From the NCBI RefSeq assembly GCF_026151205.1, contig NC_087074.1:20862765-20926764 (forward strand): a DNA stretch of 64,000 nucleotides, written 5' to 3'. Under the pieces are notes generated by a model. That model was not told where the DNA came from, made no database searches, and saw nothing but the letters and a program-made list of their open reading frames with translations. This stretch comes from Bolinopsis microptera. Its lineage: Eukaryota > Ctenophora > Tentaculata > Lobata > Bolinopsidae. The position numbers were made by a program, and so were the translations under genes. This document shows positions 17,901 through 26,900 of the stretch, piece after piece (within the stretch, counting starts at the first letter, position 1; the number at the start of each line of letters is the position of its first letter).

Positions 17901-20900
17901 ACTGATCATGACGAACGATTGTATACTTAAATACCGTACAGAACTTAGAGGACGTCAGAAGATAACGATTTGCAGGGTTTAACAGATTTAAAATCTTTGT
18001 GGGTTGTATACTTAAATGCCACACAGGGAATGTCAGAGGTAAACTGCGGAATTTAAAAAATGCATAAATGTTTTAAGGTGCATTTTAACATTTAGACAGA
18101 TGACTGCAATAACTTACACAACTGGTCTATATATTGGCATTGCTGTAGAGTCTACAAAAATAAGATACACAATGTTTTAACTTTTAATGAAGTGAGACGG
18201 GACAAAATGATTATGCCTCGCAAAGTAAAACATTTAATAATCTGTTATGTAAGTGTCAGTCAGAATCAGGCAGTCTATACTCTATAAGGGAGTCAGGTGA
18301 CTTTGTACACGCCGACCTGGGACAAGGTTAGGTATCATGTAATCCAGTGCTTTGACTGTCAGAGCTTCGGACACATGAGTGATTACTGTAAGTGTAACAA
18401 GTATAATACTGGCAGTGATTACTGTAAGTGTAACAAGTATAATACTGGCAGTGATTACTGTAAGTGTAACAAGTATAATACTGATCCAGTGATTACTGTA
18501 AGTGTAACAAGTATAATACTGATCCAGTGTGTTTCCATTTTGCAGCTGCACACAAATCGAAGGGATGCAACAGAAGAAAGATGACAAACCTAGTATCAAT
18601 TGTATCCTATACTATCTTCTGTGGCTAAAGCTTCGACAAAAATAGCTTGTAATAAACTAGTTTTAGCTACGTTCAATGTCAATCGTCTTGTCAACGAGAC
18701 AGTAGAAGTTCTAGAGGCTGGAGCACCTTACTGGTGAGGAGGTTGATGTCTTTCTTTAGGGGGTGGTCGTCTTGTCGTTGTTTGGACTAGAGGGTTGGCG
18801 AAACTACCAGTCCTTCGATCTGTATTTGGTACACTATCGACTTTCAAGCGAATCAATGTGCGAGTTTCAGGATTGGTTCGAGCATGATATCGTTTCAAAT
18901 CGCCCTCTTGAAAGTTACTCAGGAAAGTGATCAGTACAAACTTTTGTACTTAAGCTAGGTTGCCATGATCGTGGATCTCTATTCATCCTCAAAACCCATT
19001 TTTGCTTTAAAGCTTGATCTGTGGGTAGTCTGATGTATCTTAGAAATCCTCTTCCACTGTGATCACTTACTTTGTTTCGGCTACCACGATTCGAGCAACC
19101 ACCTACTGCCCAAAATGATCCTCCTGGTTTCTGCTTCTTCTTAGATGGTTGTTCAGCCATTCAGCTACTTTATTTCTGTAACATCGTTCGAGTATTGAAG
19201 AATTGAATGTGAGAGAATACTAAAATAACTCGCAATACTATAACTTGTAACTAGTGATAAGAGATGGCATAGTTAAATAACTAATCGTGTTAACAATAAG
19301 AAACTACTAGTGCTCAGTATTACCGGTTAAAACGGATGTGTCATGATTGCGTGAACAGAGACAAAACGTGGCAATGCAAATGTAAACAATGTAGAGAGGA
19401 GAGTAGAGAAAGCCATGGTATGCTGTATCTACTCGAGCGACCCTAACTTTATTAGCCAATTAGTGGGCGATACTCTCAGTGGTGGGTGTCTAAATTTCAC
19501 GGAAGTTAATATAATCGCTTGACTATGAGATTGAGTTACAAAACAAACATGTTAAAAATGTTGTCCTATCTGTACACCTGTAAGGAAGCTGATACTGCAA
19601 AGGTACAGGAGAAACGAGATTGTGGCTGGGGTATCTTATCGAACCCGAGAAACATTGTAGAAGGGATAGGAATGATCTTCAATAAGAATCTTAAGTTGAA
19701 GATTGGAACTCTCTTCCTCTTTAAGTCTGAACCATTGATAATTCATAATATTATGTCTTCCAAGAGTACGTTGCAGAATTATCAGTTATTGCCTTAGTTA
19801 GGCTATTGTTACGGCTAGGTCTGTTATCTTCGGGTTTGCTTTAGTTTTTGGTTTAGTTTTAACAGGTTGGTTTAAATAAAATCAATCATACTGTATGTAT
19901 ACTATGTATATGTAATATGTATAATATAACGATGTATGTATACTATGTATATGTAATATGTATAATATAACGATGTATGTATACTATGTATATGTAATAT
20001 GTATAATATAACGATGTATGTATACTATGTAATGTATTATGTATAATATTACCGCTCCATCTGATGATGGAGAACCACTCAGATATGGGCACCGTATTGT
20101 GTAACTTATTTATCTCCAATACAAAACCTTTGCTGCATAGGAGCAGGGAAGTAAATACTATATAATATATATATTATATATAGTAAATACTGTTTTTCAA
20201 TTAGTTTCGTAATCTAAAAGTACCCACTTCTTGCAGCAGTAAACATGGTGGACACATTTCTGAGAGAGTTTCTTGAGGTAGCTCTGAAGTTGGCCGGAAA
20301 ATGACTTGGTGAGGTCAGCTATGCTGTAGAGGTGCGGGGAGTCCCAGTAGTACTGGTGTGTTCCTAGCTTCTTCCTGGGGAGAGAGGGAGATTAGTAGTA
20401 CTGGTGTGTTCCTAGCTTCTTCCTGGGAAGAGAGGGAGATTAGTAGTACTGGTGTGTTCCTAGCTTCTTCCTGGGGAGAGAGGGAGATTAGTAGTACTGG
20501 TGTGTTCCTAGCTTTTTCCTGGGGAGAGAGGGAGATTAGTAGTACTGGTGTGTTCCTAGCTTCTTCCTGGGGAGAGAGGGAGATTAGTAGTACTGGTGTG
20601 TTCCTAGCTTCTTCCTGGGGAGAGAGGGAGATTAGTAGTACTGGTGTGTTCCTAGCTTCTTCCTGGGGAGAGAGGGAGATTAGTAGTACTGGTGTGTTCC
20701 TAGCTTTTTCCTGGGGAGAGAGGGAGATTAGTAGTACTGGTGTGTTCCTAGCTTCTTCCTGGGGAGAGAGGGAGATTAGTAGTACTGGTGTGTTCCTAGC
20801 TTCTTCCTGGGGAGAGAGGGAGATTAGTAGTACTGGTGTGTTCCTAGCTTCTTCCTGGGGAGAGAGGGAGATTAGTAGTACTGGTGTGTTCCTAGCTTCT

Positions 20901-23900: not shown

Positions 23901-26900
23901 AGTACTGGTGTGTTCCTAGCTTCTTCCTGGGGAGAGTGGGAGATTAGTCCCAGTAGTACTGGTGTGTTCCTAGCTTCTTCCTGGGGAGAGAGGGAGATTA
24001 GTAGTACTGGTGTGTTCCTAGCTTCTTCCTGGGGAGAGAGGGAGATTAGTAGTACTGGTGTGTTCCTAGCTTCTTCCTGGGGAGAGAGGGAGATTAGTAG
24101 TACTGGTGTGTTCCTAGCTTCTTCCTGGGAAGAGTGGTCAGATTAGTCAGAGGTCAGATTAGTTGAGAGTAACACGAGGTTGTCACGTGATTGACAGATT
24201 TCGGTTGCGGAATGTTCTGGGGAGAGAGGGAGATTAGTAGTACTGGTGTGTTCCTAGCTTCTTCCTGGGGAGAGAGGGAGATTAGTAGTACTGGTGTGTT
24301 CCTAGCTTCTTCCTGGGAAGAGTGGGCGATTAGTAGTACTGGTGTGTTCCTAGCTTCTTCCTGGGGAGAGTGGGAGATTAGTAGTACTGGTGTGTTCCTA
24401 GCTTCTTCCTGGGGAGAGTGGGAGATTAGTAGTACTGGTGTGTTCCTAGCTTCTTCCTGGGGAGAGTGGGAGATTAGTCCCAGTAGTACTGGTGTGTTCC
24501 TAGCTTCTTCCTGGGGAGAGAGGGAGATTAGTAGTACTGGTGTGTTCCTAGCTTCTTCCTGGGGAGAGAGGGAGATTAGTAGTACTGGTGTGTTCCTAGC
24601 TTCTTCCTGGGGAGAGAGGGAGATTAGTAGTACTGGTGTGTTCCTAGCTTCTTCCTGGGGAGAGAGGGAGATTAGTAGTACTGGTGTGTTCCTAGCTTCT
24701 TCCTGGGGAGAGAGGGAGATTAGTAGTACTGGTGTGTTCCTAGCTTCTTCCTGGGGAGAGAGGGAGATTAGTAGTACTGGTGTGTTCCTAGCTTCTTCCT
24801 GGGGAGAGAGGGAGATTAGTAGTACTGGTGTGTTCCTAGCTTCTTCCTGGGGAGAGAGGGAGATTAGTAGTACTGGTGTGTTCCTAGCTTCTTCCTGGGG
24901 AGAGAGGGAGATTAGTAGTACTGGTGTGTTCCTAGCTTCTTCCTGGGGAGAGAGGGAGATTAGTAGTACTGGTGTGTTCCTAGCTTCTTCCTGGGGAGAG
25001 AGGGAGATTAGTAGTACTGGTGTGTTCCTAGCTTCTTCCTGGGGAGAGAGGGAGATTAGTAGTACTGGTGTGTTCCTAGCTTCTTCCTGGGGAGAGAGGG
25101 AGATTAGTAGTACTGGTGTGTTCCTAGCTTCTTCCTGGGGAGAGAGGGAGATTAGTAGTACTGGTGTGTTCCTAGCTTCTTCCTGGGGAGAGAGGGAGAT
25201 TAGTAGTACTGGTGTGTTCCTAGCTTCTTCCTGGGGAGAGAGGGAGATTAGTAGTACTGGTGTGTTCCTAGCTTCTTCCTGGGGAGAGTGGGAGATTAGT
25301 AGTACTGGTGTGTTCCTAGCTTCTTCCTGGGGAGAGTGGGAGATTAGTAGTACTGGTGTGTTCCTAGCTTCTTCCTGGGGAGAGTGGGAGATTAGTCCCA
25401 GTAGTACTGGTGTGTTCCTAGCTTCTTCCTGGGGAGAGAGGGAGATTAGTAGTACTGGTGTGTTCCTAGCTTCTTCCTGGGGAGAGAGGGAGATTAGTAG
25501 TACTGGTGTGTTCCTAGCTTCTTCCTGGGGAGAGAGGGAGATTAGTAGTACTGGTGTGTTCCTAGCTTCTTCCTGGGAAGAGTGGTCAGATTAGTCAGAG
25601 GTCAGATTAGTTGAGAGTAACACGAGGTTGTCACGTGATTGACAGATTTCGGTTGCGGAATGTTCTGGGGAGAGAGGGAGATTAGTAGTACTGGTGTGTT
25701 CCTAGCTTCTTCCTGGGGAGAGAGGGAGATTAGTAGTACTGGTGTGTTCCTAGCTTCTTCCTGGGAAGAGTGGGCGATTAGTAGTACTGGTGTGTTCCTA
25801 GCTTCTTCCTGGGGAGAGTGGGAGATTAGTAGTACTGGTGTGTTCCTAGCTTCTTCCTGGGGAGAGTGGGAGATTAGTAGTACTGGTGTGTTCCTAGCTT
25901 CTTCCTGGGGAGAGTGGGAGATTAGTCCCAGTAGTACTGGTGTGTTCCTAGCTTCTTCCTGGGGAGAGAGGGAGATTAGTAGTACTGGTGTGTTCCTAGC
26001 TTCTTCCTGGGGAGAGAGGGAGATTAGTAGTACTGGTGTGTTCCTAGCTTCTTCCTGGGGAGAGAGGGAGATTAGTAGTACTGGTGTGTTCCTAGCTTCT
26101 TCCTGGGAAGAGTGGTCAGATTAGTCAGAGGTCAGATTAGTTGAGAGTAACACGAGGTTGTCACGTGATTGACAGATTTCGGTTGCGGAATGTTCTGGGG
26201 GGGGGGGGGGGGAGCAACTTCTACATTACGTTGTGGGGGGGGGGGGCAACTTCTACATTACGTTGTGGGGGGGGGGGGGGGCAACTTCTACATTACGTTG
26301 TGGGGGGGGGGGGGGGCAACTTCTACATTACGTATTCGGTTATTTCTCATTCAGGTTAGGAATCAGAGACCAAACTCAGAAAAGCCTTCAGCGAGATTTG
26401 ACTCACAATTCCAGCTACGACTGTTTCTAAATTGTTTTCACTTTTCAGTAGGATTGATGGTTTTATGGTGTTTAAATGAGATTGGAGTAAAATGACTAAA
26501 AGTGATAGTATAGTATATCTCTATATATAGATATCAGGAAGCTAGAAAGCGTATTTTTCCTGTATTTTATTTCGGAGTTCTAACCATTTTAATTATACAA
26601 AATAATCCGAATTGTTTTGTGTAAACATGTAGACTCTTATCTGTATGGTCTCAATTAAAACGACAAATTTAGGATTACATGACGTAAATCATTGAAAGAA
26701 GGCGGCTCGCTGGTCGGTGTGACAGGCAGTAATTCTATCAATTAATCCATGAAACCATCTTAAAACCAAATACATCACAATGCTGGGCCGATGGTTGACG
26801 CCCACTTTTAGTCAGCCCACAGTAAACTAGACTGTCAGTCTATAAAATGATAAAAGGATAAAAGAAGAGGTGAAATTAGACAAATATTTGTACATACACC

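Follow-up and report, generated by a model that had tools for sequence, protein, structure and literature searches.

A splice acceptor of a RUN-RH gene repeated in a 48-bp minisatellite in the ctenophore Bolinopsis microptera

Minisatellites can include splice sites when they straddle the edge of an exon. We describe here such an array in a 64,000-nucleotide stretch of the genome of the lobate ctenophore Bolinopsis microptera (contig NC_087074.1, positions 20,862,765 to 20,926,764 of the forward strand; hereafter the window), located at the boundary between intron 11 and exon 12 of a gene that encodes RUN and Rubicon-homology (RH) domains. The sequence represents one haplotig-purged haplotype of B. 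microptera. The array is real and consists of 115 tandem extra units (111 of 48 bp and 4 of 54 bp) together with the true acceptor.

The host gene has 13 exons, which run on the minus strand from 54242 to 14741 and were placed by tblastn with the Mnemiopsis orthologue P0001 and other proteins; this placement identifies the boundary in the array as that of intron 11 and exon 12. P0001 contains RH (E 7.8e-55) and RUN (E 1.3e-9) in one protein, the combination that defines a RUN-RH gene, and among solved structures it lies closest to the RH domain of Rubicon (6wcw, E 7.7e-32) and to a chain of PLEKHM1 (8jc5, E 1.2e-6). An annotated B. microptera protein from the same contig, P0003, is named uncharacterized protein LOC134813318 isoform X2. 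A reading of the window made earlier from the letters and open reading frames (ORFs) alone, hereafter the sequence-only reading, had proposed a RUN-RH gene with exons between 14741 and 54242, as the tblastn placement bears out.

Exons 1-4 (53248..54242, tblastn) encode most of the RUN domain, which was found in both P0001 and P0003. Part of the RH region is encoded by exon 9 (37027..37154, 128 nt, tblastn), and the RH domain continues in exon 10 (29524..29644) and ends, followed by the stop codon, in exon 13 (14741..14936). An alternative first coding exon of the transcript-like protein P0002 (42977..43036, 20 residues) is followed by GTGAGT, and the isoform that starts there has no RUN domain. 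Exon 11 (29067..29141, 75 nt) encodes protein 100% identical in Mnemiopsis; its 3′ end reads ...GTCATAAG|GTGAGT at 29067, leaving AG for a codon that is completed by the G of exon 12. Exon 12 (20228..20374, 147 nt) was delimited by a match to RH_dom (PF13901), tblastn with homologues, and a frame test. It is a real exon by the homologue alignments (20376-20227 with P0004) and the PF13901 match, and a 12-residue peptide identical in Mnemiopsis by tblastn makes it the source of the repeat. All of these exons lie on the minus strand. Intron 11 is approximately 8.7 kb long and, besides the array, contains a (CT)459 tract on the minus strand (28136..29053) that begins 13 bases past exon 11. Elsewhere in the genome, an RH domain in one uninterrupted 216-codon frame (L001, G000:C1:20853304-20853897) belongs to a paralogue that lacks introns there.

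Tandem Repeats Finder reports one 48-bp array at 20346-26125, with 120.1 copies and 95% matches. When the minus strand is cut at every acceptor, the array (20375..26102) and the exon that follows it resolve into 118 acceptors, borne by 111 units of 48 bp, 4 units of 54 bp, two 92-bp spacers, and the true exon. The sequence-only reading had given about 117 tandem copies; the array itself stands, with the extra copies numbering 115. The 48-bp units comprise 96 identical and 15 variant copies. In the commonest unit, an exon part, GAAGAAGCTAGGAACACACCAGTACTACT, is followed by AAT, the tract CTCCCTCTCTCCCC, and AG. The exon part equals the first 29 nt of exon 12 and is identical to it in 112 of the 115 units, which upholds the earlier derivation of the repeat from the intron 11/exon 12 boundary. 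At the joint between 48-bp units the sequence is a branch-like TACTAAT (TATTAAT in one), near the yeast branch consensus, and a typical unit reads as TACTAAT, a pyrimidine tract, CAG, and the opening 29 nt of exon 12. A 33-nt boundary motif, allowing up to 3 mismatches, has 116 matches in the window and 0 in 100 shuffles. A comparable pattern of 30 bases, with at most 2 mismatches allowed, has 116 matches across the whole 264.65-Mb genome, and all of the matches listed fall at this locus.

The array departs from the 48-bp unit in two ways. Four 54-bp units retain the GGGACT that follows in exon 12, as had been noticed earlier; one occupies 25905..25958 on the minus strand and the other three begin at 25428, 24510, and 23980. 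The 92 nt of intron immediately upstream of the array (26103..26194, minus strand) is the source of both spacers, which are exact copies of it at 25573..25664 and 24125..24216, again on the minus strand. This flank ends in a branch site, tract, and AG, GACTAATCTGACCACTCTTCCCAG, which is probably the original acceptor. Variants follow one another in the order aaaCbbdaa F aaaCbb...Cbbdaa F aaaCbb a x59 ..., where F is a flank copy, and this order points to nested block duplications that carried the flank along. Such internal block duplications suggest that the array may be unstable.

The assembly was made with wtdbg2, gap closing, haplotig purging, and Pilon (PMC10232365), so the exact array length and a 1-nt indel in exon 9 are provisional. 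This method, along with a run of 59 identical consecutive units inside the array, raises the question of whether an array that does exist owes its length and uniformity to wtdbg2 consensus or short-read polishing. We regard such distortion as very unlikely: variant units are present at both ends of the array, and the complex, specific order of variants and flank copies is hardly that of a pure artefact.

The indel in exon 9 bears on a different alternative, in which the 3′ half of the gene is dispensable in this lineage and an array damaging to exon 12 could therefore spread. The two halves of the 128-nt exon lie in different frames, owing to a 1-nt frameshift near 37085 relative to Mnemiopsis and P0002; the exon is intact in P0001 and P0002, and the annotated P0003 ends there at 328 amino acids. 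The exons past the frameshift are nevertheless 98.5% identical to P0002, against 99.0% for those before it, and 90% identical to Mnemiopsis, against 78%. Similar conservation on either side marks the frameshift as recent or as an assembly error, and a 1-nt error is possible with wtdbg2 and Pilon. Furthermore, when exons 10-13 are aligned to Mnemiopsis by tblastn, no stop appears within an exon. Relaxed constraint is for these reasons an unlikely account of the array.

The consequences of acceptor choice were read from the frame. A pyrimidine-rich acceptor was defined as an AG preceded by 15 bases of which 12 or more are pyrimidines; the array and its start contain 576 AGs, true site included, and 118 of them qualify. 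When exon 11 is joined to each of the 118, only the last gives an open frame, as the sequence-only reading had predicted, and the remaining 117 run into a stop by codon 13 at the latest (codon 11 in 111 cases, codon 13 in 4, and codon 12 in 2). The stop described earlier, TAC TAC TAA at the end of each unit, holds for the 48-bp units; the 54-bp units also reach a stop, through TAC TAC TGG GAC TAA. All 117 stops lie at least 164 nt before the end of exon 12, and under the mammalian 50-nt rule, assumed valid in ctenophores, RNAs with such stops should decay. Among the other 458 AGs in the array, 117 would stay open for at least 30 codons; 115 of these 117 are TAG|GAACAC with 6 of 15 pyrimidines, and the whole set was judged too weak to matter. 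As the unit length of 48 is a multiple of 3, one frame per strand is open for about 1,275 codons. A protein-coding or antisense reading of the array was rejected; on the sense strand, joining exon 11 to any of the pyrimidine-rich acceptors misses the open frame.

Splice sites were scored with generic weights not trained on this species. On this scale the array acceptor scores 11.2 and the original acceptor of the intron flank 5.2; of the gene's 11 other acceptors, four were scored and give -4.4, -0.8, 3.2, and 5.6. The decoys are therefore strong on paper, and the true site can barely be told from them by local sequence.

The transcript-like relative P0002 suggests which acceptor is productive. 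This protein (410 amino acids, longest contig 2110 bp) matches 70% of the query at 98% identity and spans exons separated by kilobases in the window. Coverage of distant exons by so short a contig argues that P0002 comes from spliced RNA. Across the exon 11/12 boundary its sequence, read as protein rather than DNA, is the product predicted for the last acceptor.

The sequence-only reading had gone further and proposed that copy number could tune productive splicing, making the array a variable number tandem repeat (VNTR) switch in which decoys compete with the true acceptor and array length sets the productive fraction of the mRNA. Several features fit such a switch. With 117 of the 118 pyrimidine-rich acceptors leading to a stop, leakage would lower protein output; the sequence around the true acceptor is identical to that of most decoys; and nearly every unit contains GAAGAAG, a motif that resembles exonic enhancers. 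The productive junction in P0002 speaks against it, as do similar arrays in amphioxus, which are reported to leave splicing undisturbed. Exon definition would also let only the last few acceptors compete, yielding exons of 147, 195, 243, 291 nt and so on. Copies farther up would be disfavoured because they have no donor within a normal exon length, and copy number beyond a handful should then hardly matter. We consider it quite unlikely that array length acts as a switch; such a function is possible but unsupported, and the preferred view is of a near-neutral, tolerated array whose last acceptor is the one used.

The unit could in principle be spliced in another way, with CCA|GTACTA serving as a donor in each copy to produce serial 21-nt in-frame exons (KKLGTHQ) separated by 27-nt introns. 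Such exons would stay in frame and eliminate every stop, and the 27-nt stretch does open with GT, contain TACTAAT, and end in CAG. The putative donor, however, scores -1.1 on the generic weights, compared with 3.2 to 12.2 for the 11 donors that were scored among the 12 of this gene, and KKLGTHQ repeats appear in none of the 5 homologues that span the boundary. Serial microexons are accordingly extremely unlikely.

We favour the interpretation that the array is an exon-boundary minisatellite, or "mirage", that is near-neutral, tolerated rather than selected, and spliced at its last acceptor, and we assign this a probability of about 0.75. The repeat unit straddles the edge of an exon in a real gene and its copies carry splice signals (118 AGs), two properties of mirages. 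A possible origin can be read from short sequence matches. GACT is common to exon 12 (positions 32-35) and to the intron at -24, and duplication between these sites gives a 55-nt unit; of 4-base matches at a suitable spacing there are two, the other being CTCT with a 53-nt unit. In the 54-bp units GGGACT adjoins AATC, as a GACT joint predicts. The array may have been born by duplication of a short stretch across the junction of intron 11 with exon 12, probably through the GACT match and with a unit of about 55 nt. Deletions would then have produced the 54- and 48-nt units, the loss of six bases giving the 48-bp form, and unequal exchange would have spread the latter, taking two copies of the intron sequence upstream of the array with it. 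The coding body of exon 12 is found past the final copy, so that the additional copies belong to the intron and are spliced out with it if the last acceptor is chosen. Choice of a wrong acceptor would give an early stop, and the resulting RNA would be expected to be lost by decay. Neutrality, the steps of this birth, and the splicing behavior of this allele are what we infer from these features.

To place the array in its genome, we surveyed 20 regularly placed stretches of 10 kb on C1 and C2 (200 kb) and six more (60 kb, including 2,796 N). In the 200-kb sample, tandem arrays with a period of at least 9 number 119 and account for 13.7% of the bases. Two more boundary duplications, one of them firm, were found in the 26 stretches (260 kb). 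The firm case (L015:8101-8987; G000:C1:13008101-13008987) lies in a TGF-beta type I receptor gene, where the boundary between exon 2 and intron 2 is repeated in tandem about 30 times. Among the copies are 27 CCACCTG|GTRAGT donors, and the first alone gives an in-frame junction with the following exon. Exon positions come from the transcript-like orthologue P0007, whose protein reads GYDEPLAPANSN across the junction, as the first donor predicts. The second case (L023:5544-5653, minus strand) is predicted to be a young acceptor duplication and is less sure than the first: 2.3 copies of a 48-bp unit with TACTAAC, a tract, and TAG precede an open frame, the upstream copy meets a stop when read by eye, and the neighboring exon resembles CLASP1 only at E 0.99. 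The array in the window is probably not alone in its genome.

Strong splice-like motifs (donor score at least 9 in three arrays, acceptor score at least 8 in two) occur in L017, L015:1-840, L015:8101-8987, L023, and the window array. The L017 motif was set aside because it looked antisense to the neighboring frame by eye, as was a two-copy duplication in the second sample (L030) whose motif is antisense to a long open frame; L015:8101-8987, L023, and the window array were retained. A 51-bp array in L009 is a further candidate. Where L015 and L029 are joined, a 29-bp minisatellite (10281-11153) reaches the acceptor of a TGF-beta receptor exon at about 11155; its units carry CACAA in place of the CACAG found at the true site. 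Frames were followed by script in two cases and by eye in L023, and in all three, choice of the wrong site leads to an in-frame stop. It is nonetheless doubtful that arrays of decoy splice sites, from 2 to more than 100 copies and of both acceptor and donor type, recur in this genome as brakes that act by unproductive splicing, with length mattering, and as raw material for new introns.

Several results weigh against the exon-boundary interpretation or its extension to the genome. The productive junction was read in the relative P0002 and not in RNA of the array-bearing allele. The second, 60-kb sample yielded no further case among its 20 arrays. Clustering of arrays at exon edges was tested in the two genes with hand-entered arrays of about 50 bp or more, leaving out dinucleotide tracts; with the ascertained arrays excluded, 3 of 6 lie near a boundary in one (P=0.14) and 1 of 9 in the other (P=0.47). 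Donor motifs in 69 arrays and in reversed controls number 16 and 8 at scores of at least 6, 6 and 6 at 7, 4 and 5 at 8, and 3 and 1 at 9. Acceptor scores of at least 8 occur in 2 arrays, the window array included, and in 0 reversed controls. Without significant clustering at edges, and with motif enrichment weak or absent, chance placement in a minisatellite-rich genome suffices. Near-neutral minisatellites born at exon edges in such a genome are most likely what these arrays represent.

Other features of the window lie mostly within introns of the host gene. Intron 9 contains a long interspersed nuclear element (LINE)-like element (30028-35830, minus strand), in which a long ORF with a 2OG-Fe(II) oxygenase domain (PF13532) lies upstream of an endonuclease/reverse transcriptase ORF. 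Another reverse transcriptase ORF lies in an intron on the plus strand (49696-51012), and a weak match to a DDE-type transposase (E 0.0089, below the curated cut-off) lies in an intron on the minus strand (38478-39728). In intron 12, a 399-codon open frame (16041-17237, minus strand) has no Pfam match and shows a hydrophobic stretch by eye; it is possibly a nested intronless gene. An (AG)n tract occupies 51673-52156.

The presence of 116 near-identical acceptors before one exon constitutes a natural experiment on splice-site choice. Since the copies can hardly be distinguished by local sequence, position or exon definition must decide among them. Boundary minisatellites may also offer an age series for the origin of new introns and cryptic exons, and they warn that exon edges in minisatellite-rich genomes are open to mis-annotation. 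That a single ctenophore genome holds such repeats at acceptors and at donors alike suggests that they are not a cephalochordate oddity.

The closest known system is found in amphioxus, where tandem, minisatellite-like repeats of exon-intron boundaries, named mirages, are reported in Adh3, TnC, BflGb6, BflGb9, and PGBD5 (PMC3087553, PMC3902484). BflGb6 has a repeated acceptor with 6 and 3 repeat units in two haplotypes, in BflGb9 a 3′ exon boundary is duplicated, and reverse transcription-polymerase chain reaction by the authors suggests that regular splicing is undisturbed (PMC3087553, PMC3902484). The amphioxus repeats resemble the window array in spanning exon-intron boundaries, in many cases carrying AG or GT signals, and in occurring on both acceptor and donor sides; BflGb6 in particular likewise duplicates the 3′ end of an intron with the 5′ part of an exon. 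The two systems differ in host (a ctenophore and a cephalochordate), in extra copies (115 here versus the 6 and 3 repeat units of the BflGb6 haplotypes described), and in unit length (48 bp, with 96 identical copies, versus 150-160 bp as given for BflGb6). A human minisatellite of splice donors, said to be that of IFI6, reportedly supplies repeated splice sites to one transcript; it repeats donors and the window array repeats acceptors, so the donor array of L015 is the closer match. Constructs with tandem-duplicated splice sites were reportedly made in the 1980s by Lang and Spritz, Kuhne et al., and Reed and Maniatis. These also set identical splice sites in tandem beside one exon, but they were laboratory-made and of few copies, whereas the window array is natural and presents 116. 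Tandem alternative splice sites (TASS, NAGNAG) similarly place several sites near one boundary; they are close-set and catalogued by use in RNA, whereas the acceptors here are spaced by 48 nt and known from genomic sequence. The host gene shares RUN and RH domains with Rubicon/PLEKHM1-type proteins but belongs to a ctenophore and encodes about 520 amino acids. Searches of the open-access literature for minisatellites, boundary repeats, and VNTR acceptors gave no ctenophore case among the papers listed, and those on duplicated splice sites and VNTR acceptors returned nothing. The array is thus of a kind already known, the mirages, in a phylum that is new as far as searched, and its copy number is far above those of the amphioxus cases compared.

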